Assembly (NCBI GenBank): GCA_019695185.1
Contig: JAIBAN010000037.1
Span: 1 to 64,000, forward strand
DNA length: 64,000 bases
Direction of reading: 5' to 3'
Source: Blastocatellia bacterium
GTDB taxonomy: Bacteria > Acidobacteriota > Blastocatellia > Chloracidobacteriales > Chloracidobacteriaceae
Part shown: one piece after another, positions 1,138 through 54,253 of the stretch
Position numbering within the stretch: the stretch's first letter is position 1
How the letters are laid out: each line of letters opens with the position of its first letter
The notes under the pieces: model-generated
What the model saw: only the letters and a program-made list of their open reading frames with translations
Told to the model about the DNA's origin: nothing
Databases searched by the model: none
Program-made: the position numbers and the translations under genes

Positions 1138-4100
1138 TCACTGTACAATCAAGGTAAAAGGAACCGGTGTTATTGAAGTTGCTGGCGTGCTGGTGCCGGT
1201 CAACTGTAACGAATAGGTGCCGGGCGGTGTATTGGAGGAAGTCGTGACCACCAATTGGGTCGAACCCGGAATGGGAAACGACGAAGGGTTAAAGGAAAAT
1301 GACGAGCCTGCCGGAATTGAACCTGAGATTCCAATTGAAAGGCTGCCGCTGAAATTGCTGGCGGCCACTGACACTGTGTAGCTGGTGCTTTGCCCTCTGA
1401 CTACGGTGCGACTGGTGGGACTCATCGAAAGTGTGACTGTGCCCGGACCGGAGGACTGCACAATCAAAGTGAACGGAACCGGGGTAATGGAAATTGCCGG
1501 AGAACTGGTTCCAGTCAATTGGAACTGATAGGTTCCCGCCGGGGTGCTGGCTGAAGTGGTCACCACCAATTGGGTCGAGCCCGGAATGGGGAACGAAGAC
1601 GGGTTGAAAGCAAAGCTGGTTCCTGCCGGAATTGATCCCGAAATCCCGATGGAAAGACTCCCACTGAAATTGCTGGCGGCCACTGACACCGTGTAACTGG
1701 TACTTTGCCCTTGGGTCACCGTGCGACTGGTGGGACTCATGGAAAGAGTGACGGAAGGTGGGGACGAGGGCTGAATGGTCAATGAAAAATCAGCCTGAGC
1801 CGCAAGGGAACCGTTGAGGAAGGCAACCAGCTTCATGTTGTATGTCCCCGCCGGGGTGGCGGTGGCGGGCTCGTTCACCAACGCGGCTGAGGTGCGGAAC
1901 GTGAGTGTGGAGGTACAGGGGAAGCTTGAACAGCCGGAAGGGCTGAAGCTGAAAGTGGTGGCTGGTGGAATGTCTCCCTGAACGTCAACCTGAAGATTGG
2001 CACCGGGTGCGTTTTTGACATCCAGGACCACCGTGTAACTGGCGCTTTGACCGGCCTGGATGGTGCGAGTTGAGGGAGTGACCGACAGGGTTACCACCGG
2101 TGGTGGTGGAGGGTCCGTCACAACCAATAAAAATTCGCTTGAATCAACCACCGTCGCTCCGGTTGCAATGCCACTGGCAATCAGCTTGTAAGTCCCAGGT
2201 GTCGTTTGGCTGGCGCTGGTAAACACCGAAAGGGTTGATTCATTCCCGGCGGTGACTGATGGCGCATAGGCAAAGGTGATTCCGGGTGCGGAAGCCGAAG
2301 TGGTTTTCAGTCTCAGCGTGACAAAGCCGGTGAAATTGGTCCGGGCCAAACTGACTACATAATTGGCGGTGTTGCCTGCTGGAACGGTGATTGAGGTTGG
2401 GCTGGCGGAAAGGGAAACGGAAGGATTCCCCCCATTGCCTCCGGCTTTCACCGTAATCACAAATTGGGTTGCCCGGACCAAAGCCCCCGGCAATGACCCG
2501 ATGAGGGTAATGGTAAAGGTTCCTTCCGGGGTTGAAGTTGTCGTGGCGATGGTCAATTGGGTCGAATTTCCGCTCACTGGATTGGTGGAAAATGTCGCCG
2601 TCGCGCCAGAGGGGAGCCCTGAAACCGAAATATTGACTGGTCCTGGCGCACTGGTCCGATTGAGATTGATGGTATAGGTCAGATTTTGTCCGGGAGCCAC
2701 GGTTTGCAGGTCGCTGGGGGAAGTTGACAAAATCACGATTCCGGGGGCAGTGACCGTTAAGGTCAAGGGAGTTGGGGTGACGGAAATGTTTGGGGCGCTT
2801 CCCGTCACAGTCAGGTTATAGTTCCCTGCAGGCGTGGTGTCTCCCACTGAGACGGTCAGGAGCGTGCCACTCAACAACGTCGGGTTGGGGGTAAACTGGG
2901 CTGTGGCACCAGTTGGCAGGCCGCTTACCGAGAGATTGACCGGGGCTTGATTGGCCTGACGGTCAATGCTGATTGTATATCGGGCGTCCTCACCTTGGGG
3001 AACCGTGCGGTTTGACGGGAAGGCGCTCAAGGCTATGCTTGGTGTCGCAGCCTGCCCGGTGACAGTCAGATTGGTGGTGGCCAACCCTCCTCTTGTAATT
3101 GCTGAAATGGTTAAAGTTCCGGCAAATTGCTGGGGGGGCAGGGTAAAGGTAATCAGACGGGAATTCACCACCCTGACATCCCGAATTTGATTCCGTCCCA
3201 CGAAAATCTGGGTGTTATCCAGAAAATTGGTTCCCATCAAAACAACTGGGGTTCCCGTGGAACCGGTGGCAACCTGGTTTGGTCCGATACTTGTGATGGT
3301 CGGGGAAGCAGTGCGGAATTGGAAAAACTGACCCGTGGCTCCATCCAGGACAAAAACAGAGTTATCCGTAACGGCAATCCCGACCGGGTTTTGAATGGTT
3401 CCCGGAGGGGTCAATTCAGTTGTGGTAATTTTGTCGCCATTGACAGTGACAATGAAAACAGTTCCGGCTGCTGCGATGTAAAGATTGCCTGCGCGGTCCT
3501 GGGCAATGGCGGATGGGCGGGCGTTTTGGAAAGGTTCTTCCTCGGTCTGGGGCTGGATTCCGCCAAATTTGACATTGACAGTTGGTTCAGCCACACCGCT
3601 GGATTGGGAAATTGATTTCACCGTCCCGCTGCCGACCGCAATTTGTCGTACAAAGGCACTGTTTTCCGTCACATTGAGAATCGTGTCTGAAAGTGTGATT
3701 TTTTGGGGTGTGTTAAATCGGGCGGTGGCGGCGGTTCCATCCTGGGTTCCGCTTTGTCCAAGCCCTCCAGCCAACAGGCGGACGGTAGTCGAGTTTTTAT
3801 TGACCGTGGCCTGCCAGATGACATGGTTGACAGCATCGGAAATATACAGGTCTTCGTTGGAGTCAATCGCCACGTCACGCGGCCCCCAACTGGTCACGCT
3901 GGCTGCCACTGCCTGAATGTCGCTCAGGCTCACGACGGTTCTGACATCGCCGGTTCCCGGATTGATACGGCGCACCGATTGGTTGTTGGTATCGGCCAAG
4001 TAAACCTGACCTCCGATTCCAACTCCCAAGGGGGCGTTGAAAAGGGCTGCAGTGGCTGTCCCATCGGAATTCCCGGAGGTGCCCGAACGACCCGAAAAAT

Positions 4101-9534: not shown

Positions 9535-12500
9535 TTAGAGAGCAATGGTCAGGGTGATGGTCGGAGCATTGATTTGGCTCACACCGTTTGCCGTTCCCCG
9601 AATTGTAATGACATAGACCCCGATGGGAGCCCCACTTCCCACCACCAGATTCATACCCACCGAGCCTCCGGTGGCCGGGTTTGGGTTAAAGACGGCGGTC
9701 ACGCCGGAGGGTAACCCTTCAGCGGCAAATTGGACGGCTGCCGTGGTCCCGGTTCGTTGCAACGTAATATTAAAGGATTTGGTTTCGCCGAGCCGCATGG
9801 TTTGAACCGTAGGGGATACCGCAATGACAACGCTCGAGCTGGGGGTGGATGCCGTTATAACCAATGTGACAGTCGTTGGGGTCACGGTGGCGTTAGTGGC
9901 TTGGCCGTTGATGGTCAGCGTATAGGTGCCAACCGGAGTTGAGGACCCGGTGGTCACCGTCATCGTTGCAGAAGTTCCCGTTGGTGTATCCGGGTTAAAT
10001 GTGGCATTGGCTCCGTTTGGCAGCCCTGAAGCCGACAATCTCACCCCGCTGGTGGTATTGGTCCGGTTGATTGAAACCTGAAACGTGGTTGACTGGCCGA
10101 CCTGAATGCTTTGGGACAAAGGAGATGCCGAAAGGGTGATGGTACCTGTGGTAATGGCTGTTACCACCAGGGTGACCGTAATAGGGGAAATGGAAATCCC
10201 GGTGGCTTGGCCGGCAAGTGTCAGGGTATAGGTGCCAGCCGGAGTTGAGGAACTGGTCGTCAGGGTCAGGGTTGAGGAGGTTCCCGTTGTCGAATTTGGA
10301 CTAAAAGCGGCATTCGCCCCGCTGGGCAGACTGGTAGCCCCCAACTGGACCGGTCCGGTGAAATTGGACCGGGTGAGGGAAATCTGATAGGTGGCGGAAC
10401 TGCCTGCCGTAACCGTTTGCGTCGGTGGGGTGGCAGCCAGAATGACGGTGCCAGCGGAAGTTGCCGAAGTCACGACCAGAGTCAGGGTCATGGGACTCAC
10501 TGTGGCATTGGTCGCCAGTCCTGAAACTGTAACCGTGTACGTACCTGCCGGAGTGGAGGAACTGGTGGCTATTGTCAGGGTCGAAGAGGTCCCTGTGGTT
10601 GTGGTTGGATTAAACGTGGCACTGGCCCCGCTGGGCAGGCCACTGGTCGCTCCGAGCTGAACCTGGCCGGTGAAATTGGACCGGGTGAGGGAAATTTGAT
10701 AGGTGGTTGAACTTCCTGCCGTGACGGTTTGGGAAGTCGGGGTGGCTCCCAGGGCAACCGAACCGCTGGTTGCGCCGCCACTCACCACCAACGTAACCGG
10801 AACCGAAGCGATGGTAATGCCTGTGGCTAGTCCGCCAATGGAAAGGGTATAGGTTCCCCCTGGTGTGGCTGCTCCGGTGGTTACGGTCAACGTTGCCGTA
10901 TTGCCTTTGGTATCATCCGGGTTGAAGGTGGCAGTTGCGCCACTGGGTAAGCCTGACACCCCAAAGCGAACCGAGTCGGTAAAATTGGTCCTGGTCAACG
11001 TTACCTGATAGGTGGTGGATTGTCCGGCCTGGACCGTTTGGGAAGCAGGAGTGGCTGTAATTCGAACCGAACCTCCGGCATTGCCTGAGCCTATGACCAG
11101 ATTCACGGTGACAGGTGAAACGGTGGCCCCGGTAGCCTGCCCGCCTATCGAAATCGTATAGGTTCCGGGTGGAGCCGAAGTGGTGGACCGCAGGGTCAGC
11201 CCACTGGTATTTCCGGTGGTTGACGGAGGATTGAACTCGGCAATCACACCTGTGGGGAACCCTGTTGCGGCAAACCGAACCTCGCCGGTGAAATTGCTGC
11301 GGGTCAGCGATAACGAAAAAAGGGCATCCTGTCCGGCGTTGATGGTGGCTGCTGGCGGCGTGGCGGAAACTTTGACTGAGGCTGTTCCGCTGGGCGCGGT
11401 TACCGTCAGGTTGACTGTGACCGGTGTGACATTGGCTCCGTTGGCCTGACCATTGATGGTGATATTAGCCGACCCTGCCGCAGTGGAATTCGTGCGGACG
11501 GTCAGGGTGGCTGAGGTTCCGGTTGTCGAATCGGGGCTGATTTCAGCTTCCAATCCGGGTGGAACTCCAGCCAGGGAAAGCCGAACCTCACCGGTAAAAT
11601 CACCTCGGAACAAGGTCACCGCATAAGTGGCGGTCTGGCCGGCGGTAATGGTTTGCGCCGGCGGATTAGCCGAAAGTCGAACGGTTCCTCCCTGCGGTTG
11701 GCTCAAACTCAGGCTGCCCGTGACCGATTGCACCGATGCACCATTGGCCTGTCCCATGACGGTAAACTGAATGGTTCCGGAGGGATTGGTGGGACTGCTG
11801 GTAATGGTCAGTCTGGCACTGTCGCCCTGGACCGTTTCGGGGTCAATGAGGGCGCGCATGCCTTGGGGTAGACCGGAAACCGCAAGTCGCACATCCCCGG
11901 AGAAGTTTGACCGTTTCAAACCAATCGTATAGAGCGCCGCCTGACCGGGCAGGATATTTTGGTTCTGGGGTGTCAGGGAGAGTGCCACCACCGCCGGTTC
12001 CGGTCGAATGACATTCAGGACCGCTTCGACGGAATTGGACAGGCCCGGAGTTTGACCCGCTGAAAAATTGCCCGTGATTTTCAGCGCATACCGACCGGAA
12101 GGTGTGTTGGTGGCGGTCAGAATCTGTAAGGTGGCATCCTGTCCGGTAACCGGATTGGGGGTGAATTTGGCTTGAACGCCGGAAGGCACTCCGGCCACCT
12201 GCAAGGAAACCGGACCGTCATAACCGGTGCGGGCAATCTGAATGCCGTACATGGTCCCCTGTCCGGCGGTGACGGTTTGTTCACGGTCTTTCAGGTTGAG
12301 AGTGAAATATCCGCCCTGAATCACGGTCAGATTGGCGGAGGCCGCACCGGCCCGATGCTGCAATCTGACTTCCACGGTGCCGGGTTGTGTCAAGGGCGGA
12401 GCTTTGAAGGAAAGCCGGGTGGAACTCTCCACCCGCACTTCCTGGGCTGGCAGGGAGCCAATGCGTACCTGGGTGTCGCGCAAAAAATTGGTTCCAAGCA

Positions 12501-43251: not shown

Positions 43252-44271
43252 TTAAGAGGCAACCTCGATTTTCCAGGACCGTTTCCCCAACTCGGTGACG
43301 GTAATGTGAACCGCCAGAAACCGCCGGATGACCTCGATATTGGTGGTTGTATGTTCGGACAGCACCGAAGTCACAAAGGAGCCGCCGCCCGCAACCGCCA
43401 GCGGCAGGAGCAACTGGTCAGCCAGGTATTCACCCACCGGTGCTTCGGACCGAACGTACTGTTTGGCTTCCTTGAGGGCTTCTTCGGCCACCAGTTCGGC
43501 CCGTTTTCCTTTTTCGCCGAAGGCGGTAAAGACTTCGGTCAGGTGTTCGCTTTCGACTTCGATGAAAACCACATTTCCCGGACCACGCGACGTGGTCACG
43601 TTTTCCGTTTTGAGTACGGGATTTTTCCATTCCAGTCGCCGCGCAATGAGTGAGAGTTCACGGTCGGCAATATCGGTCGGAAGCATTGCCACCAGTGCCG
43701 TGGCCCGTTGTTCGTGTATGGTGCCCCGTTCGCACAAATCCAGCCGATTGAGCATTCCGGTCGGTTCAATCACGGCTGTGAACTTCCCTCCGCCCACGGG
43801 AAAAAAGCCCGGACGTTCAAGTTCCACCGTGACATTGGCACCCATCCGCCGCAAAAGCGGCAGAAAGGATTTTTCCAAAAACGGAAAGGGCGGAGCTGCC
43901 GGGTTGTGCGTGCCACCTTCCAGGGTCAGTTCCGTTTTTTCGGTGGTCGTCAGCAATGCGGGCAACACCGTCTGCAAAACCAGTGTGGCACTGCCGGCCG
44001 TCCCGATGGCAAACGAATAAGAGCCGCTTTGCATTTTTCCCGGACGAAACACCAGTTCCTTGGAACCAAGCGTGTCACCCGACACTTCGGCCTGCCCGAT
44101 TTCCGTTGCCGCTTTGACTGCCGTCAAATGCTGCCGGAGGAGTCCCGGTTTTTGCCGTCCGGCCCGGATTTTCTCAATTTTGAACGGTTTCCCGGTCATC
44201 ATCGAAAGCGCCAGGGACGAGCGCAAAATCTGCCCGCCGCCTTCGCCAAATGAGCCGTCAATGGTAATCAT
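43252..44271 (-). CDS. rtcA: RNA 3'-terminal phosphate cyclase
   Basis: A 339-residue enzyme, normal length for RtcA. It uses ATP to turn an RNA 3'-phosphate into a 2',3'-cyclic phosphate and works in RNA-end repair. Landmarks: GEGGGQILRSSLALS (residues 7-21), the ELTLEGGTHNPAAPP segment (about 112-126) and the C-terminal ...SEHTTTNIEVIRRFL, whose His is the adenylated residue in characterised RtcA. It is the last clear RNA-repair gene of the minus-strand train, after slipin, with palindromic repeats (44290-44467) between. Expression is likely under RtcR/sigma-54 control from the promoter at 52370, unless internal promoters exist. Confidence 0.95.
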   Translation of the reverse strand: MITIDGSFGEGGGQILRSSLALSMMTGKPFKIEKIRAGRQKPGLLRQHLTAVKAATEIGQAEVSGDTLGSKELVFRPGKMQSGSYSFAIGTAGSATLVLQTVLPALLTTTEKTELTLEGGTHNPAAPPFPFLEKSFLPLLRRMGANVTVELERPGFFPVGGGKFTAVIEPTGMLNRLDLCERGTIHEQRATALVAMLPTDIADRELSLIARRLEWKNPVLKTENVTTSRGPGNVVFIEVESEHLTEVFTAFGEKGKRAELVAEEALKEAKQYVRSEAPVGEYLADQLLLPLAVAGGGSFVTSVLSEHTTTNIEVIRRFLAVHITVTELGKRSWKIEVAS

Positions 44272-46073: not shown

Positions 46074-47498
46074 TTACCCCTTCACGCACACGACCTGCCG
46101 CAAGGTATGCACAATCTCCACGAGGTCCGACTGCGCGTTCATGACCGCATCAATGTCCTTGTAAGCGGCTGGAGTTTCGTCAATTACGTCCTTGTCTTTC
46201 CGGCATTCAATTCCAGCGGTGGCTCGTTCGTGGTCTTCGACCGTGAAACGCCGTTTGGCTTCGCCGCGAGACATCTTGCGGCCCGCGCCGTGCGAGCAGG
46301 AATTAAAGCTCTCCGGATTGCCCTTGCCGCGCACAATGAAGGACCGCGCTCCCATGCTGCCGGGAATGATGCCCATATCGCCTTCACCCGCACGAACTGC
46401 GCCTTTGCGGGTGACAAACACGTGCTCGCCGTAATGGAGTTCACGCTGGACGTAGTTGTGGTGGCAATTCACCACCTCAATCGAAGCCGAGAACGGAGGC
46501 AGTTCACCGGTTTCCGCCACAGACTGCTTGACGGCTTCCATCATCAGTTCGCGGTTCGTGCGGGCGAAGTTTTGCGCCCACGAAACGGCTTCAAAGTAGT
46601 CGTTGAAATGCTCGGTTCCTTCGTTGAAATAGGCCAAATCCTTATCCGGCAGATTTCCCAGAACCCGCTGCATGTCCTTTTTCGCCAGCTCAATGAAATA
46701 GGTGCCGATGCGGTTTCCAACGCCGCGCGAACCGCTATGGAGCATAAACCACACGTCGTCCGATTCATCGAGGCAGACTTCAATAAAGTGGTTGCCGGTT
46801 CCCAGCGTGCCGAGATGGTTTAAATCATTGCCCCGCCGCAATTTCGGGTGTTTATCCAAAATCCGGTCGTAGCCCGGCTGGAGTGTTTCCCAAACCTCCA
46901 TTTGGCGCGCTGGAATATTGGCCCAGGCTCCCCGGTCGTTGCGCCCGCCGTTGTCCGTCCGTCCGTGTGGCACTGCTTTTTCAATTGCCGTGCGGATGTT
47001 TTTCAGGTTGTCGGGCAGGTCTGTTGCCTTCAACGTGGTGCGAACGGCGGCCATTCCGCAACCAATATCCACACCGACAGCCGCCGGAATGATGGCTCCC
47101 TTGGTTGGAATCACGCTCCCGACCGTCGCGCCGATGCCCCAATGGACATCCGGCATGGCGGCAACCCACTTGTGGATGAACGGCAATTGAGCCACGTTGA
47201 GTAACTGTTTGCGGGCCGGGTCTTCGATGGCCACGCCTTTGACCCACGCTTTGATGGGCACACCATGTTCCGGCGTAATCAGCTCGTAGCGCGATTTTCC
47301 GGACTCAACTTCTTCCGTTGCAACGGTTACTGTCGCTTTTTCGGCCCGATTCGGCTTTTTCGGCGCAGGTGCAATCAGTTCTTCTTGGTTATCAAGTTCC
47401 AATTCGTCAGCCAGTAAATCAGCCATTTCCGCAGGGGAAAGGCGATGGTTGTCGGTAATCGTTCCAAAATGTTTTTTGTTCTTTGACGTGTTTTTCAT
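46074..47498 (-). CDS. rtcB: RNA-splicing ligase RtcB with N-terminal extension
   Basis: A 474-residue GTP- and Mn2+-dependent ligase that joins RNA 3'-phosphate or 2',3'-cyclic phosphate ends to 5'-OH ends. The core starts near residue 71 (YELITPEHGVPIKAW) and keeps all landmarks: PDVHWGIGATVGSV, GVDIGCGM with the metal-binding Cys, GNHFIEV, HSGSRGVGN, and the C-terminal NSCSHGAGRKMSR with the guanylated His. The first about 70 residues are an extra Lys/Glu/Pro-rich tail that E. coli-type RtcB (about 408 residues) lacks. The start is the ATG complementary to 47496-47498; a longer open frame to 47732 is rejected because it reads through a Y RNA. It lies 63 bases downstream of that RNA. Confidence 0.95.
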   Translation of the reverse strand: MKNTSKNKKHFGTITDNHRLSPAEMADLLADELELDNQEELIAPAPKKPNRAEKATVTVATEEVESGKSRYELITPEHGVPIKAWVKGVAIEDPARKQLLNVAQLPFIHKWVAAMPDVHWGIGATVGSVIPTKGAIIPAAVGVDIGCGMAAVRTTLKATDLPDNLKNIRTAIEKAVPHGRTDNGGRNDRGAWANIPARQMEVWETLQPGYDRILDKHPKLRRGNDLNHLGTLGTGNHFIEVCLDESDDVWFMLHSGSRGVGNRIGTYFIELAKKDMQRVLGNLPDKDLAYFNEGTEHFNDYFEAVSWAQNFARTNRELMMEAVKQSVAETGELPPFSASIEVVNCHHNYVQRELHYGEHVFVTRKGAVRAGEGDMGIIPGSMGARSFIVRGKGNPESFNSCSHGAGRKMSRGEAKRRFTVEDHERATAGIECRKDKDVIDETPAAYKDIDAVMNAQSDLVEIVHTLRQVVCVKG

Positions 47499-47561
47499 AG
47501 TGTGTGATTCCTGAATCCGTAATTTCCAACCTGGATAAGCAAAAAAACCGAAATGTAATCG

Positions 47562-47715
47562 AGAGCGACGACAAGGGGGCGAAGAAACGCCAGTGCTTGC
47601 GCACGTCTGTTGCTCTACTGCCTGAGCTACTCTCCCACAAATGAAACGGGAGAGGCTGGACTTGCACCAGCGACCCACAGATTGAAATGTAGTTCCTTCT
47701 GGCATTCGTCGCTCT
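47562..47715 (-). ncRNA. Y RNA 1 (YrlA-like) with permuted tRNA-like module
   Basis: A 154-nt RNA read 5' to 3' from 47715. Basal stem: 10 bp, AGAGCGACGA with TCGTCGCTCT. Then an internal loop (5' ATGCCA; 3' GCCCCCTTG), a second helix GAAGGAAC with GTTTCTTC (one G-U) at 47692-47699 and 47581-47588, and an unpaired CTACAT. The module follows in permuted tRNA order: CTGT half-stem, T-arm GCTGG-TGCAAGT-CCAGC (47655-47671), acceptor CTCTCCC, cap of 11 bases, acceptor GGGAGAG, TA, D-arm GCTC-AGGCAGTA-GAGC (47612-47627), ACAG half-stem. A GNRA hairpin GTGC-GCAA-GCAC (47593-47604) sits before the second helix closes. This is the pattern of Ro60-bound bacterial Y RNAs. A T7 run lies about 15 bases past the 3' end. 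Confidence 0.85.
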
Positions 47716-47777
47716 TTCAAGCGTTGAGCCAAATTGAATCCGGGTGGTCAAGTACCCGGAATGTGAATTCCAAATCG

Positions 47778-47933
47778 AGAGCGACGACAAGGAGGCGAAG
47801 AAACAACAGCGCTTGCGCGCTCCTGCTGCTCTACTGACTGAGCTACACGCCTCATATTATTGGGAGGCGCGGCTGGAATTGCACCAGCGACACGCAGATT
47901 TACAATGTAGTTCCTTCAGGCATTCGTCGCTCT
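47778..47933 (-). ncRNA. Y RNA 2 (YrlA-like) with permuted tRNA-like module
   Basis: A 156-nt RNA read from 47933, in tandem with Y RNA 1 and clearly its duplicate. The same 10-bp basal stem and same second helix (GAAGGAAC at 47910-47917 with GTTTCTTC at 47797-47804) are kept. Module: CTGC half-stem, T-arm GCTGG-TGCAATT-CCAGC (47872-47888), acceptor of about 7-8 bp (CGCGCCTC with GAGGCGTG), cap of about 10 bases, TA, D-arm GCTC-AGTCAGTA-GAGC (47828-47843), GCAG half-stem, then hairpin AGCGC-GCAA-GCGCT. Acceptor and anticodon-like stems differ from Y RNA 1 by paired changes that keep the pairing, which supports a selected RNA structure. It starts 13 bases after the stop of the gene at 47947. 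Confidence 0.85.
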
Positions 47934-48867: not shown

Positions 48868-48911
48868 ATTGTCCCCATCCCCACCCTCACCACACGACGG
48901 ACCAGTGCGTT

Positions 48912-49008
48912 GGTAATAACAATTCACTTTGATTGGTACGCTTGTCACAGTGCTGGGCCGAATTTGTAAAATGGGATTCGAACCCATACTGCCGCCCCTG
49001 GCATTACC
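48912..49008 (-). ncRNA. Element with a tRNA T-arm, possible fifth Y-type RNA
   Basis: On the minus strand, ATGGG-TTCGAAT-CCCAT (48971-48987) is a perfect consensus tRNA T-arm. It is enclosed by GGTAAT/ATTACC (49003-49008 with 48912-48917). The 5' side reads GGTA-ATGCC and the 3' side ATTG-T..., which matches the ATGCC and TTGT of the Y RNAs. I could not find a clear D-arm or a good second helix, and CTACAT is absent. It may be a decayed Y RNA, a divergent one, or a tRNA fragment. A hairpin CGAGAA-TCTGC-TTCTCG lies just outside (49013-49029). Confidence 0.4.
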
Positions 49009-49188
49009 GAAACGAGAATCTGCTTCTCGGGGTGGTTGGTTTGCACTCGCTTCCGTTTGTGTGTGGTTACCGACAATTCATTTGCCAATTTCCATTTGCG
49101 ATTTGCGATTTGTCAATTCCGTAAATTACCGGCCCAAATGACAAGTGGCTTTCAATGACAAATCGCAAATCGCAAATCGCAAATGTAT
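49009..49188. repeat. CGAGAA hairpin and inverted GATTTGC heptamer pair
   Basis: Besides the short hairpin, GATTTGC-type units at 49094-49112 are faced by AAATCGC units at 49158-49185 across about 45 bases, in the intergenic region before the DIP1984 gene. No gene seen. Confidence 0.65.
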
Positions 49189-49647
49189 TTATTCCTTCAA
49201 ATCCGTCAGCCAGTTGAGTGCCTGAATACGGGAATCCAGTTCGCGGTATTCCTGAGCCAGCGCGTCTGCCGTTTTTTGAATTTCGGCCACATTGACCGCA
49301 CTCACAAACTTGACTTCGGAGCGCATGTACACGTTGTGCATGACGGCTGCCGCTGCGGCCAGCTCGCGGTAAACACCCTGCCGCTTCAACAATCCGTCAC
49401 GGCGGGCAATCGCATCGGCCAGGGTTTCGTTGGCCTCGAATTCGGTCAAACTGTTGGTCTGGTTGATTTTCCGGACCAATGCAACCACTCGTGTGCCAAT
49501 TTCCTCGACTTCGGCCAGCAACTGACTGGGATTTTCCGCTGGAGCGTCGCCCTGCTGGACCTTGGCGTTTTGCAGGATGCGCTGCTTGATTTGTTCAAAT
49601 CGCTTTTGCGCGTCGGCGCGCTGGATGAGTGCTTCTGCGAGTTTCAT
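49189..49647 (-). CDS. DIP1984-family protein
   Basis: A 152-residue helical protein. The start MKLAEALIQRADAQKRFEQIKQRI, the 'LVRKINQTNSL' block (about 58-68), 'LADAIARRDGLLKRQGVYREL' and the 'EVKFVSAVNV' strand are typical of the DIP1984 family (sometimes called septicolysin). Function is unknown in general. Its ATG overlaps the TGA of the upstream gene (ATGA), so the two are translated together. Being in this operon links it to RNA repair; I have no direct evidence of a reaction. The long coiled regions fit an oligomeric or scaffold protein. Confidence 0.8.
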   Translation of the reverse strand: MKLAEALIQRADAQKRFEQIKQRILQNAKVQQGDAPAENPSQLLAEVEEIGTRVVALVRKINQTNSLTEFEANETLADAIARRDGLLKRQGVYRELAAAAAVMHNVYMRSEVKFVSAVNVAEIQKTADALAQEYRELDSRIQALNWLTDLKE

Positions 49648-50276
49648 AGTTCACCTTTCGCTTCCTCAAGTGTCTCTGCCGGGATGGTCACTTCGCACGC
49701 ATAGTCGAGCGGAAGCGCCTGCGGCGTATCGTAAACTTCCCAATATTTTTTCCAGTATTCCCACCACGCTGCGTGCTTTGCTGAAATTTCGTTCAAAAGA
49801 ACCGGGCCATGCACGTTTAGAATGTCCATCCGGTCAGCCATCACGCAAACGCCCATTTCACCAGCCCAAAAAGCCAACAGAGCCGGACTTTGCTGCACAT
49901 CAATCTGGGCCGGGTTCAGTCCGAAAACCACATCGAACCGTTCGGCTGCTTCCAGAATTTCCCCCAGGCGGTCAGGTTCAAAGGTAAATTCACCAAATGA
50001 AACCGACGGTGACTGCTCAAATTCGTCGTTTTTGAGCCTGTCCGCCCAGTCTTCGGGTGTTTCATCCGCGTTCCTGGTCAGGAAACAGACACTTTTCAAA
50101 CCCGAAAAGCGCAGGGCCAGGATTCCACTGGGAGGTTCTGCCGGGTTGCGGGGTTCATTCCACAATTGGACACCGCTAAACTCGACCTGGAAACAGTCGG
50201 GAAAGTGTTCCGTCCACCAGTTCCAGCACCCTACGTCGGTGATTGCTTCAGTCAGGATTGCAAGTGCTTCGTTCAT
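49644..50276 (-). CDS. Hypothetical protein coupled to DIP1984
   Basis: A 210-residue acidic protein of unknown family. The ATG complementary to 50274-50276 is preferred; a frame from 50321 would run into the Y RNA. It is rich in Trp, Glu and Asp (VGCWNWWTEHFPDCF near the start; AAWWEYWKKYWEVYD near residue 175), with a mixed alpha/beta middle and no membrane segment. It overlaps DIP1984 by four bases. It starts 35 bases after the 3' end of Y RNA 3, so it is the first protein gene after TROVE and the two Y RNAs. A role with damaged RNA is inferred only from place. Confidence 0.65.
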   Translation of the reverse strand: MNEALAILTEAITDVGCWNWWTEHFPDCFQVEFSGVQLWNEPRNPAEPPSGILALRFSGLKSVCFLTRNADETPEDWADRLKNDEFEQSPSVSFGEFTFEPDRLGEILEAAERFDVVFGLNPAQIDVQQSPALLAFWAGEMGVCVMADRMDILNVHGPVLLNEISAKHAAWWEYWKKYWEVYDTPQALPLDYACEVTIPAETLEEAKGEL

Positions 50277-50311
50277 AGTGTTCCCGTTCGATTCAAACCC
50301 GTTTTTTGATA

Positions 50312-50443
50312 GCGACGACAAGTGAGTGAAGAAACATTTTTACCGTGCGCTCTGCCGGATTGAGCCACTTCCCGAACTTCGGGAAGCCCGGATTTGAACC
50401 GGGAATCTCACGGCCCCATGTAGTTCCTTCTGGCATTCGTCGC
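50312..50443 (-). ncRNA. Y RNA 3 (YrlA-like), with the clearest tRNA-like module
   Basis: A 132-nt RNA read from 50443. Basal stem GCGACGA/TCGTCGC, internal loop ATGCCA, second helix GAAGGAAC (50423-50430) with GTTTCTTC (50328-50335), then CTACAT. The module is CCGTG half-stem, AGATT, T-arm CCCGG-TTCAAAT-CCGGG (50387-50403, canonical T-loop), 7-bp acceptor CTTCCCG/CGGGAAG closed by five bases, TG, D-arm GCTC-AATCCGGCA-GAGC (50349-50365), CACGG half-stem. Thus a tRNA is opened at the anticodon loop and closed at the acceptor end. No GNRA hairpin is inserted here. It lies upstream of the hypothetical/DIP1984 pair and downstream of Y RNA 4. Confidence 0.88.
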
Positions 50444-50450
50444 CTTTCTT

Positions 50451-50569
50451 GAGGACTGAGGACTGAGGACTGAGGACTGAGTGAAGAAAAAGCCGCTTGG
50501 TTGACGGTTTCATCATCCAGCTCTGGAAAAAACTCAGTCCTCAGTCCTCAGTCCTCATCACTTTTAGAA
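50451..50569. repeat. Inverted pair of AGGACTG heptamers between Y RNAs 3 and 4
   Basis: AGGACTG runs (50452-50481) face CAGTCCT runs (50534-50557), about 50 bases apart. They bound the spacer between the two RNAs and can form a long hairpin. Confidence 0.8.
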
Positions 50570-50628
50570 GGGCCGACAAGAATTGTTGAGACGTGATTGG
50601 AAAATGTAGTCACAACAGCATTCGGCCC
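50570..50628 (-). ncRNA. Y RNA 4, minimal form without tRNA-like module
   Basis: A 59-nt RNA read from 50628. The 7-bp basal stem GGGCCGA/TCGGCCC is followed by ATGC and faced by TTG, the same bulge pattern as the longer Y RNAs. The second helix is TGTT-GTGA with TCAC and AACA, with a 3' bulge. The loop carries CTACATTTT, the same CTACAT as in Y RNAs 1-3. The whole tRNA-like part is missing. It would bind Ro60 through the stem-bulge but have no gate module. It is the first RNA after the TROVE gene. Confidence 0.75.
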
Positions 50629-50636
50629 AATTTTTT

Positions 50637-50756
50637 AGGACTGAGGACTGAGGACTGAGGACTGAGGACTGAGTTTTTCCCAAACTGAAGTTAAAATTGT
50701 CATCCCAAATACAGTTTTTCTTAACTCAGTCCTCAGTCCTCAGTCCTCAGTCCTTT
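50637..50756. repeat. Inverted pair of AGGACTG heptamers after the TROVE gene
   Basis: AGGACTG runs (50637-50673) face CAGTCCT runs (50726-50754), about 50 bases apart, between TROVE and Y RNA 4. Together with 50451-50569 they frame Y RNA 4 on both sides. Confidence 0.8.
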
Positions 50757-52313
50757 TCAGATGGTTCCTGCCTCGATGACACCGACCCAGTGGTCTGCAC
50801 CAAGGGTTCCGGCGGCAAACTTGGCAATCACATCAAACACCTGGTCGGAGAATCCTCCGACGTTAAGAATGTCGTCGCGTTCGTAAGCCTGCGTCGTTCC
50901 GTACGGCTGGATGTCAATACAGACCATCCGGGCCTGTGGGTTGCGCTGCTTGAACACGTTCCATTCCTGCATCGTTGCCGTTCCCCGTCCGCGTCCGTTT
51001 GCATCCACCCACGATTCGTTGTCCGAAACGTAGATGATGAGGTCGCCCGCAGCCTTCCGTTCGTTCAGCTTGCGGAGCGGGGCGCTACAGTTGGTTCCAC
51101 CGCCGCCGATGGAGGCCAGCTTCTGGGCGTTGGTCATCACGGTGTCAAACGGGTTGAGCGTGAGGTTGACCACACTGTGTTCAAACGGAAGCACCTGGGC
51201 GCTCGTGTTCTTGCGCACCACGGCTGCCGCCACCAGCGCCGCCACGTCAATACACCGGACCGTCGAGGTCGCTCCCGGACGGTATCCCGTCGCCGGACAC
51301 GACATCGAACCCGAAACGTCCGGCAGCACATAAACCTGGCCGCTCAATTCCGGCACGTTGGCCAGAGCGATTTCCATCGCTTCCTGCAAGGCCAGCCGGA
51401 CGACCTGCGGCACATCGTTGCCAGCCATCAGAAACGCCGTCATCAACTGGTACGGAAACACCCGCGCCTTGGCAATTTCCTGCGGATTGCGCAGGCGGGT
51501 CGCAATCAGTTCCGGAAGACCCGCTTCGTTGAACACACCATGCCGCGCAAAGGTGTTGAGGTTCATGCGGGTCATCTGCCACGAGGCATTGCGGGCGATT
51601 TCAGTCCATTCCGCCGTTCCCAGGTTCAGCGCCGTCAGCATCTGGAACGGAACATTCGGGATTTCCACCCGATTTCCGGCCTTGAACGCTTCGTATTGCT
51701 GCACCAACTGCGGTAACGCTGCGGCGTTATGGTCGCGTCCGATGAAGTAGCCGAACAACGCTTCGCGGCTGGCTTCCTTTGGCTTCGGATGAACCATCTT
51801 GATGATGTCCGCAAACGACGGGCTCTGGCCCACGGAATCGCGGAAAATCATGTCGTCGTTGCGGGTTTCAAACCACTGCCGCACCAGCCGCTTCGGAGCG
51901 GTTCCCAGCGACTTGCGGCCCACCTGTCCCGACCGAATGATTTGGACAAAGTTGCGGAGCATCTTTCCGTTATCAATCACCCGAGGGAAAATAGCGGCCA
52001 GCAGGTCACGGTCCTTGACAGCGAGCACCGCGCACAGCAACGCAGGCATGTCCTTCATAAAGCCCTGCTTGCGGGTATAGATGGCGAGCTTCGCAATAAA
52101 TTCCGGTTCAATCTGGCGGGCGAGGTCCAAAACCACCGCCAACTGGTCCTGTGCCGTTGCGTAGAAGGTCGAGTTCAGACAACCGGTCATCGCGTATTGC
52201 GCCAGCTTGTGCTTCGGTGAAAATTCGTAGGCCGGAGCGCCAGCCTGATTCAACGTGTTCGGAGCCTGGATTTGCTGGCCAATCAGGGACTGGAATAAAT
52301 TCTTGTTCGCCAT
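50757..52313 (-). CDS. rsr: TROVE-domain protein (Ro60/Rsr orthologue)
   Basis: A 518-residue ring-shaped RNA-binding protein, close to the length of vertebrate Ro60. Residues about 1-350 are the helical TROVE domain (start NLFQSLIGQQIQAPNTLNQAGAPA split by helices; 'MPALLCAVLAVKDRDLLAAIFPRVIDNGKMLRNFVQIIRSG' region near 100-140). The C-terminal part is a von Willebrand A domain with an intact MIDAS start, VLPDVSGSMS (about 330-340), and DNESW near 430. Ro60 proteins bind the ends of misfolded RNAs in the central hole and Y RNAs on the outside. It is the first gene of the minus-strand train, with AAGGAG 14 bases before the ATG and a sigma-54 promoter about 57 bases upstream, divergent from rtcR. 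Confidence 0.95.
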   Translation of the reverse strand: MANKNLFQSLIGQQIQAPNTLNQAGAPAYEFSPKHKLAQYAMTGCLNSTFYATAQDQLAVVLDLARQIEPEFIAKLAIYTRKQGFMKDMPALLCAVLAVKDRDLLAAIFPRVIDNGKMLRNFVQIIRSGQVGRKSLGTAPKRLVRQWFETRNDDMIFRDSVGQSPSFADIIKMVHPKPKEASREALFGYFIGRDHNAAALPQLVQQYEAFKAGNRVEIPNVPFQMLTALNLGTAEWTEIARNASWQMTRMNLNTFARHGVFNEAGLPELIATRLRNPQEIAKARVFPYQLMTAFLMAGNDVPQVVRLALQEAMEIALANVPELSGQVYVLPDVSGSMSCPATGYRPGATSTVRCIDVAALVAAAVVRKNTSAQVLPFEHSVVNLTLNPFDTVMTNAQKLASIGGGGTNCSAPLRKLNERKAAGDLIIYVSDNESWVDANGRGRGTATMQEWNVFKQRNPQARMVCIDIQPYGTTQAYERDDILNVGGFSDQVFDVIAKFAAGTLGADHWVGVIEAGTI

Positions 52314-52369
52314 ACTCGTTTATTATCTCCTTCGGACAAAGTGTTGTTCATTCCGATGGTTTCCCTTAG

Positions 52370-52385
52370 TGCATCCTGCGTGCCA
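52370..52385 (-). promoter_or_regulatory. Sigma-54 (-24/-12) promoter of the RNA-repair train
   Basis: On the minus strand TGGCACG-CAGG-ATGCA matches the consensus TGGCACR-N4-TTGCW at nearly every position, with the invariant GG and GC exactly ten bases apart. The expected start of transcription is near 52359, giving a leader of about 45 bases before the TROVE ATG. The divergent gene encodes RtcR, a sigma-54 activator of rtc operons. Confidence 0.88.
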
Positions 52386-52543
52386 AAGATTTCTGATTGC
52401 TCTGAAATATTTTTTATTCTATTGAAAATAAATGATTTACATTGTTATTTCGGTTTGTCGCAGAGTTTAAGGGTGATTTTGAATTGATTTTGTGATTTAG
52501 ATTAAAAGCGAAATTTGTAGAATATTTTCTAAATCCCTAAAGA
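52386..52543. other. A/T-rich divergent spacer, probable RtcR binding region
   Basis: About 160 bases between the sigma-54 promoter and the rtcR leader repeat. It is strikingly A/T-rich compared with its surroundings, fitting upstream activator sites and DNA bending. I could not define an inverted-repeat operator. It should also hold a housekeeping promoter for rtcR. Confidence 0.5.
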
Positions 52544-52642
52544 TTCACCGCAGAGGCTCAGAGGTTACGCAGAGTTTGCGCAGAGTTTCTCTTTGGTTTT
52601 CTCTGCGAATCCTCTGCGTAACCTCTGCGGCTCTGCGGTGAA
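52544..52642. repeat. Long inverted repeat in the rtcR leader
   Basis: Arms of about 41 bases made of CACCGCAGAG, CAGAGGTTACGCAGAG and similar units, complementary to CTCTGCG...TAACCTCTGCGG-type units. It ends ten bases before the rtcR ATG. If transcribed it makes a long hairpin that could hide or slow ribosome access. CGCAGAG-type inverted repeats are a common class of dispersed element. Confidence 0.8.
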
Positions 52643-52651
52643 AAGAAACGC

Positions 52652-54253
52652 ATGAATCAAAAAAAACTGGTTGTGATTGGATTTCTGGGAGCCACGCTGG
52701 ACGCCGGCAAGGGGCCGGGCCGCTGGGAAAAATGGCGTCCGTCGGTGGCGTTGTGCCAGCACGACAACCTGCTGGTGGACCGGTTCGAACTGCTTTATCA
52801 GGAAAAGTTTACCGAGTTGGGGCAGGTGGTACTGGAAGACATCGCCACGGTTTCACCCGAAACCCAGGTTGAATTGAAGTTGGTGAATTTCCAGGACCCG
52901 TGGGATTTTGAAGAGGTTTATGCGGTGCTGTTTGAGTGGGTCCGGGGCTACGAGTTTGACGTTGACCACGAGGAATATCTGATTCACATCACGACCGGCA
53001 CCCACGTGGCTCAGATTTGTCTTTTTCTGCTCACGGAATCGCACCATTTTCCCGGAAAGCTGCTGCAAACCGCTCCACCTAAACGGTATCGGGGTGACGA
53101 CCCCGGCACCTTCACCATCATTGACCTGGATTTGTCGAAATATGGGCGGATTGCTTCACGGTTTGCCCAGGAGCAACAGGAAAGTCTCACGTTTTTGAAA
53201 TCGGGCATTGAAACCCGCGACCCGGCGTTCAACAAACTGATTGAACAGATTGAAAAAGTGGCGATTGCCTCGAAAGCGCCCATGCTCCTGATGGGGCCGA
53301 CCGGAGCCGGAAAATCCCGGCTGGCCAAGCGGATTTATGAACTCAAACGAGCCCGTCATGTGCTGGAAGGCCGCTTTGTCGAGGTGAACTGCGCCACTTT
53401 GCGCGGAGATACGGCCATGTCCACCTTGTTTGGTCATGTCAAAGGGGCGTTTACCGGAGCCGTCAACAATCGTCCGGGACTCCTCCGGCAGGCGAATCAC
53501 GGGCTGCTGTTTTTGGATGAAATCGGTGAACTCGGCCTGGATGAACAAGCCATGCTGCTGCGGGCGCTGGAGGATAAGACCTTTCTGCCGATGGGGGCCG
53601 ACCACGAAACGGACAGCGATTTTCAGTTGATTGCCGGAACCAACCGGGATTTGCACCGGAGTGTGGCGGAAGGCAAGTTCCGCGAGGATTTGCTGGCCCG
53701 TATCAATTTATGGACCTTTCACCTGCCGGGGCTGAAAGACCGCCGGGCCGATATTGAACCGAACATTGCCTATGAACTGGACGAATTTGCCCGCCGCAAC
53801 GGTTCGCAGATTGTTTTTACCAACGAAGCCCGCCGCCAGTTTCTGAAATTCGCTTTGTCGGCGGAGGCCGTCTGGAGCGGCAATTTTCGGGATTTGAACG
53901 CGGCTGTCACCCGCATGGCGACCCTGGCCGAGGGAGGGCGGGTGACTCCGGAAGATGTGGCCGATGAAATCAAACGGCTGACCCGCAGTTGGCAGGGAAG
54001 CGGGGAACCGGTTCAGCGTGGTGGCCTGGAGCAGGTGCTGGAACCGGAACAACTGGCCGCCCTCGACCGGTTTGACCGGGTGCAACTGGCGGATGTGGTA
54101 GCGGTCTGCCGGACTGCCGCCACGCTTTCCGAAGCCGGGCGGCTCCTGTTTTCCACTTCGCGCGAACGCAAGAAAAACACCAACGATGCCGACCGGCTGC
54201 GGAAATATCTGGCGCGGTTTGGGCTTTCATGGAATGCCCTGAAAGGCATCTAA
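52652..54253 (+). CDS. rtcR: RtcR, sigma-54 activator of the RNA-repair operon
   Basis: A 533-residue regulator, the same length as E. coli RtcR. The N-terminal about 180 residues are the RtcR/CARF sensor domain (VVIGFLGATLDAG start, HITTGTHVAQICLFLL near 130), which is thought to bind RNA ends and release the AAA+ domain. Walker A is GPTGAGKSRLAKR (about 215-227), the sigma-54 contact loop is GAFTGA (about 268-273), and Walker B is LFLDEIGEL (about 288-296). An arginine-finger region and a C-terminal helix-turn-helix (LADVVAVCRTAATLSEAGRLLF) complete it. Divergent from the TROVE gene, it should activate the -24/-12 promoter at 52370. Confidence 0.95.
   Translation: MNQKKLVVIGFLGATLDAGKGPGRWEKWRPSVALCQHDNLLVDRFELLYQEKFTELGQVVLEDIATVSPETQVELKLVNFQDPWDFEEVYAVLFEWVRGYEFDVDHEEYLIHITTGTHVAQICLFLLTESHHFPGKLLQTAPPKRYRGDDPGTFTIIDLDLSKYGRIASRFAQEQQESLTFLKSGIETRDPAFNKLIEQIEKVAIASKAPMLLMGPTGAGKSRLAKRIYELKRARHVLEGRFVEVNCATLRGDTAMSTLFGHVKGAFTGAVNNRPGLLRQANHGLLFLDEIGELGLDEQAMLLRALEDKTFLPMGADHETDSDFQLIAGTNRDLHRSVAEGKFREDLLARINLWTFHLPGLKDRRADIEPNIAYELDEFARRNGSQIVFTNEARRQFLKFALSAEAVWSGNFRDLNAAVTRMATLAEGGRVTPEDVADEIKRLTRSWQGSGEPVQRGGLEQVLEPEQLAALDRFDRVQLADVVAVCRTAATLSEAGRLLFSTSRERKKNTNDADRLRKYLARFGLSWNALKGI

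Follow-up and report, generated by a model that had tools for sequence, protein, structure and literature searches.

The function of Y RNAs apart from holding Ro60 is a long-standing question. In vertebrate Y RNAs, a lower helix with a conserved internal loop is bound by Ro60, and the apex is modular. The window analysed here (the whole 64,000-nt stretch of DNA) encodes an RNA that resembles them in build and that consists of little more than the Ro-binding hairpin. Full tRNA mimics are encoded in the same operon, which provides a natural comparison of one protein with and without the effector module. What is this bare hairpin, and what could it do for its protein partner?

The minus strand at 50628-50570 (5'-GGGCCGAAUGCUGUUGUGACUACAUUUUCCAAUCACGUCUCAACAAUUCUUGUCGGCCC-3') forms a 59-nt hairpin of two helices, in which a 7-bp lower helix is followed by an asymmetric internal loop (AUG.. 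/ ..UUG), an 8-position upper helix and a 16-nt apex (Table 1). The folding energy is -20.7 kcal/mol (z -4.6, calculated on a 60-nt stretch), and none of 200 shuffles was equally stable. Stability alone leaves the strand unfixed because the plus strand of 50570-50628 folds about as well; the strand was assigned from homology and context. The CGA/UCG lower helix and the AUG/UUG internal loop are those of bacterial Y RNAs, and the hairpin lies 129 nt behind rsr, the gene for the Ro60 orthologue, on the same strand. The arms CGAAUGC, ACUACAU and CUUGUCG are common to the short RNA and the three long Y RNAs of the window, as the initial annotation had noted. Since only the apical segment separates the two strands of the upper helix, there is no room for a tRNA-like module, and this single hairpin has the build of the YrlB type. 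UACA of the apical segment is present in 19 of the 19 short (stem-only) RNAs of our alignment A1, although the motif scan never required it. The apex of the window copy is shorter than that of many relatives and lacks most of their ACAU/AUGU pairing. Sequence, fold, apex and a covariance model match of 65.7 bits confirmed the earlier proposal of a 59-nt Y RNA without the tRNA-like module, and we are nearly certain of its identity as a stem-only Y RNA.

Table 1. Features of the rsr-rtcB-rtcA locus, in coordinates of the window. R2 is the covariance model described in the text.
Feature	Position	Strand	Evidence or remark
rtcR, sigma-54 activator of RNA repair operons	52652..54253	+	Pfam RtcR, E 8e-83
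sigma-54 promoter TGGCACGCAGGATGCA before rsr	52370..52385	-	sole exact TGGCAC-N5-WTGCW match in 64 kb
rsr, Ro60 orthologue (TROVE and Ro60 vWA)	50757..52313	-	Pfam; D. radiodurans Rsr 2NVO, E 1e-25
second heptamer hairpin unit	50638..50757		between rsr and short Y RNA
stem-only Y RNA, YrlB type	50570..50628	-	59 nt; fold, motif scan, alignment, model match
lower helix, 5' strand GGGCCGA	50622..50628	-	pairs with 50570-50576; 7/7 pairs
internal loop, 5' side AUGCU	50617..50621	-	AUG invariant in alignment A1
upper helix, 5' strand GUUGUGAC	50609..50616	-	pairs with 50585-50592, one U-U mismatch
apical segment UACAUUUUCCAAUCAC	50593..50608	-	stands where long forms carry tRNA-like module
upper helix, 3' strand GUCUCAAC	50585..50592	-	pairs with 50609-50616, one U-U mismatch
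internal loop, 3' side AAUUCUUG	50577..50584	-	UUG invariant in alignment A1
lower helix, 3' strand UCGGCCC	50570..50576	-	pairs with 50622-50628; 7/7 pairs
heptamer hairpin unit (GGACTGA)n - spacer - (TCAGTCC)n	50437..50556		downstream of short Y RNA
long Y RNA, T-arm and D-arm, YrlA-like	50312..50443	-	Rfam YrlA 45.8 bits; R2 41.6 bits
long Y RNA, YrlA-like	47781..47930	-	Rfam YrlA 38.2 bits; R2 42.5 bits
long Y RNA, YrlA-like	47565..47712	-	Rfam YrlA 37.3 bits at 47578-47699; R2 42.4 bits
rtcB, RNA ligase	46074..47498	-	Pfam RtcB, E 3e-134; start inferred within ORF 46074-47732
rtcA, RNA 3'-phosphate cyclase	43252..44271	-	Pfam RTC, E 4e-78

A chance origin of this likeness to Y RNAs is excluded. 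A strict scan for paired Y arms returned 147 matches in 966 kb of rsr loci compared to 0-4 in shuffled sequence, and 23 versus 0-1 when matches of at most 80 nt were considered. A loose regex scan over-called in GC-rich loci, and a covariance model was used instead. The model R2, built without the window and without its two nearest relatives (L064 and L068), placed its best match in the 64 kb at the short RNA (E 7.1e-16); the three long Y RNAs scored lower, at about 42 bits. When the 8.3-Mb genome was searched with R2 (150 of 1101 first-look candidates scored), the short RNA was the only site among the matches listed, in a search that was not exhaustive and from whose list the long forms were missing too. 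Furthermore, compensatory changes were found in 12 of the 15 pairs of alignment A1, and 95.8% of its paired cells were indeed paired compared to 74% in column shuffles, while slid versions of the alignment collapsed. Both sides change among relatives in 5/7 columns of the lower helix, a covariation that is partly built in because this helix belonged to the selection. The upper helix, which stood outside the selection, has both-sided changes in 7/8 columns and 92% of its cells paired.

The hairpin belongs to an RtcR-controlled RNA repair operon. Its rtcR gene lies on the plus strand and diverges from rsr, with the sigma-54 promoter site in between. On the minus strand, rsr is followed by the short RNA and one long Y RNA; after several small genes come the other two long Y RNAs, then rtcB, a gene for an SPFH protein and rtcA. 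The protein encoded by rsr also matches 1YVP, and a profile of 16 relatives aligns almost end to end with human and Xenopus Ro60. In this alignment, H175 stands opposite H187 of Ro60, which we take to be a residue important for Y RNA binding, and no clear counterpart of vertebrate K170 and R174 was found in Rsr of the window. RtcR turns the operon on upon tRNA damage (PMC7790460). We found neither a promoter nor a terminator belonging to the short RNA itself, and no terminator-like site in 50250-52700; release of the short RNA would therefore depend on processing. The transcript from the end of rsr to the first long Y RNA is predicted to fold into a single very large hairpin, whose tip is the intact Y hairpin. 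The flanking heptamer arrays were rejected as Y-specific processing sites, given that a 21-mer of the array matches 1169 times in the genome, often as inverted pairs about 80-130 bp apart. The operon also encodes a DUF6847 protein (PF20935, E 1e-51) at 49189-49647 on the minus strand. An element at 48905-49110 (minus strand), which has a T-arm (GTATGGGTTCGAATCCCAT) and GGTAATGCCAGG and is situated between the Y RNAs and rtcB, was recognised neither as a tRNA nor as a Y RNA; a similar stretch precedes rtcB in locus L010 (2280-2440).

By build, slot and homology, we place the window RNA with YrlB, so that stem-only Y RNAs are a kind already known. Like the window RNA, YrlB (RF02565) is a bare hairpin with a CGAAUGC/UUGUCG lower helix, an internal loop, an upper helix and A(C/U)UACAU. 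The Salmonella rsr-yrlB-yrlA-rtcBA operon, which is likewise controlled by RtcR, has its short RNA first behind rsr and before YrlA. The window RNA differs from YrlB by its length (59 nt versus 78 nt in the Rfam model and 68 nt in the match to the model built here), by lacking the outer helix extension and by having almost no apical mini-hairpin. Two Salmonella-like records, labelled phage sequence and evidently host DNA (L078 and L079), carry rsr followed by YrlB (RF02565, 105.5 bits), YrlA (70.9 bits) and rtcB. Recognition was reciprocal: model R1, which contains no enteric sequence, found YrlB of L078 (41.4 bits, E 2.3e-9), and RF02565 matched one acidobacterial stem-only RNA of our set, in L006 (E 4e-4). 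Between yrlA and rtcB of L078, we also observed a third Y RNA (924-1037) with a T-arm and no evident D-arm (Rfam YrlA, 31.7 bits); the Salmonella operon literature consulted for comparison names yrlB and yrlA only. No near relative of the rsr-yrlB-yrlA stretch of L079 was found in complete genomes of E. coli.

At gathering score, Rfam returned no match in the whole window. RF02565, whose gathering score is 97 bits, did not match the short RNA even at E 5, and we file this RNA under the YrlB kind and not as a member of the Rfam family. YrlA (RF02553) did not match it either, the T-arm and D-arm being absent there. The three long Y RNAs scored 37-46 bits against YrlA, under its gathering score of 69, and in E-value mode Rfam reported these long forms and weak matches, mostly of microRNA models on the heptamer repeats. 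YrlA and the window RNA share the Ro-binding arms, and three RNAs of the YrlA sort stand in the window operon; YrlA is a tRNA mimic with T-arm and D-arm, whereas the window RNA has neither. The survey indicates that stem-only RNAs outside enterics escape the public YrlB model, which leaves the annotation of these repair operons incomplete.

How common are such RNAs? In 70 sources (955 kb), our first model gave 192 matches at E up to 1, nearly all of them near rsr and in its orientation. Merging and classification, with one antisense match set aside, left 221 Y RNAs in 64 loci: 68 stem-only, 84 with T-arm and D-arm, 47 with a T-arm only and 22 others. This grouping by simple arm patterns is approximate for the last two classes. 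The stem-only group, defined by length and absence of a T-arm, measures 58-83 nt (median 66, n = 68) and is represented in 50 of the 64 rsr loci. According to record titles, its hosts are Acidobacteriota, Planctomycetota, Verrucomicrobiota, Calditrichia, KSB1, SAR324, Polyangia, Gammaproteobacteria and Rhodobacteraceae. Zooshikella and Luteolibacter are among the carriers. The initial annotation was therefore right about a module-less Y RNA and needs correction in that this RNA is no isolated curiosity, since such RNAs span several phyla and the YrlB kind is known from Salmonella. The breadth of the stem-only forms and their frequent slot behind rsr are new as far as the literature covered goes, which is not a claim that they are unpublished. 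One locus (L029, 9542-9752) contains a complete operon in which a single 63-nt stem-only Y RNA stands between rsr and rtcB-rtcA, with no long Y RNA nearby; no YrlA match was found at E 1e-3 in this possibly incomplete assembly. This operon suggests that a stem-only RNA can serve alone.

Mid-length Y RNAs of about 87-114 nt, with a T-arm and apparently no D-arm, were also seen (L019 5589-5675, L020 9736-9837, L027 9766-9867, L067 3220-3322, L074 3176-3289 and L075 3213-3323), often with AGUACAUGG instead of ACUACAU. They look like a separate tier between the stem-only and the full forms.

What, then, could the short RNA do? Rsr binds bacterial Y RNA at the lower stem, and in D. radiodurans access to Rsr is under the control of the Y RNA, which also recruits exonucleases (PMC4726728). 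In Salmonella, Rsr-YrlA associates with PNPase (PMC4987338); according to a review, it is the tRNA-like domain that binds PNPase (PMC8394870). The D. radiodurans Y RNA, Yrn1, is an Rsr partner bound at its lower stem (PMC4726728), as proposed for the window RNA, but is longer and tethers PNPase (PMC4726728). The short RNA would be transcribed as part of the RtcR/sigma-54-controlled operon and presumably cut out of the operon transcript. Binding of Rsr to its lower helix and internal loop, which we predict with high confidence, would make it stable. Lacking the tRNA-like module, it would occupy Rsr but neither imitate a tRNA nor tether PNPase, and would form a second kind of Rsr particle beside Rsr-YrlA-PNPase, setting the share of Rsr that is free of PNPase. 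PNPase-free particles are the best reading because the short RNA keeps the Rsr-binding part and has no module. That its role depends on not tethering PNPase seems on balance probable, if less so than the binding itself. Identity, structure, conservation and operon context are well supported, and we consider it likely, taking the reading as a whole, that this is a YrlB-type Y RNA forming PNPase-free Rsr particles when the operon is on.

The initial annotation had suggested a competitor or blocker, or a free-Ro60 mode, either of which is plausible by analogy with gating and tethering by Y RNAs; we favour an Rsr partner unable to recruit PNPase. As a gate or decoy, the short RNA would cover the outer surface of Rsr or titrate it, keeping substrates or long Y RNAs off. 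Such a role would fit an RNA made of the Rsr-binding arms and little else, and Y RNAs of D. radiodurans do regulate the access of RNA substrates to Rsr (PMC4726728). However, a small Y RNA may block less: human Y5, which has a smaller internal loop, lets Ro60 bind 5S rRNA simultaneously, while larger loops hinder this (PMC11277228). The Y5 case speaks mildly for an open Rsr particle, and not a blocked cavity, with the short RNA as well. Moreover, the stem-only Y RNA of L029 has no local long Y RNA to compete with. We regard the gate or decoy as possible and rather doubtful.

The hairpin could also be an element of the rsr mRNA, bound by Rsr in the 3' UTR and controlling or protecting its own message. 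A stem-only RNA comes directly behind rsr in 30 of the 64 loci, and the short RNA has no promoter of its own, as expected from such an element. Conversely, many loci have stem-only RNAs far down the row, upstream of rsr (L024 and L050) or several together (L006 and L045), and YrlB is entered in Rfam as a separate sRNA. These observations make the mRNA element improbable, and the PNPase-free Rsr partner remains our preferred reading.

The arm motif shared with the long forms and the nearly empty apex might instead betray a degenerate, functionless remnant that arose by deletion from one of the long Y RNAs next to it. Arms were compared with UACA as anchor and with most of the outer helix left out. 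Of the stem-only RNAs, 75% had another stem-only RNA as their nearest neighbour in a different locus, compared to a mean of 37% and a maximum of 58% in 2000 within-locus label shuffles. The window RNA is nearest to the stem-only RNA of L068, which comes from another genus, with 30/34 arm positions in common versus 14-17/34 with its own long neighbours. A recent deletion is thus unlikely on sequence grounds, because it is other stem-only RNAs that the arms resemble most. Together with the compensatory changes in the helices, this kinship largely refutes the deletion product, to which we give very little credence. An apical mini-hairpin of at least 4 pairs was found in 55% of stem-only RNAs versus 17% of shuffles, with little of it in the window copy. 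Tentatively, and with more doubt than confidence, stem-only Y RNAs could be a distinct class of Rsr partners, old and with a task of its own, present in most RtcR/Rsr operons, which would form graded sets with the T-arm-only and full tRNA-mimic forms that divide Rsr between partners, and would be the sole Y RNA in some bacteria (L029).

A plus-strand transcription terminator with a chance likeness to Y RNAs, for which the T run behind the hairpin (AATTTTTT) could be taken, is refuted by a covariance model score far beyond chance and has virtually no probability left, as no plausible plus-strand gene ends at the hairpin and the terminator scan of 50250-52700 was negative.

Several other Y RNA-related elements were observed in the course of the survey. 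In the genome of the window itself (L003), YrlA-like or permuted tRNA-like elements lie away from rsr, on contig C15 at about 11659-11769, where they adjoin a purine nucleoside phosphorylase-like gene and an uncharacterised gene. Right behind rsr of L010 (SAR324), positions 2028-2149 carry an inside-out Y RNA: a tRNA whose parts follow the normal order (Rfam tRNA, 45 bits) and which has a Y stem with a short closing loop in place of the anticodon arm, which amounts to a circular permutation of YrlA. In L006 (10297-10498), the module of a Y RNA matches 23S rRNA around CGTAACTATAACGGTCCTAAGGTAGC with 26 identities over 29 nt, scoring 43 compared to at most 32 in shuffles; a weaker 23S rRNA likeness (15/16; score 27 versus 26) was seen in L071 at 3233-3366 on the minus strand. 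Finally, about five Y RNAs stand in a row behind a plasmid-borne rsr of Rhizobium etli (plasmid pA; L082, 5610-6281).
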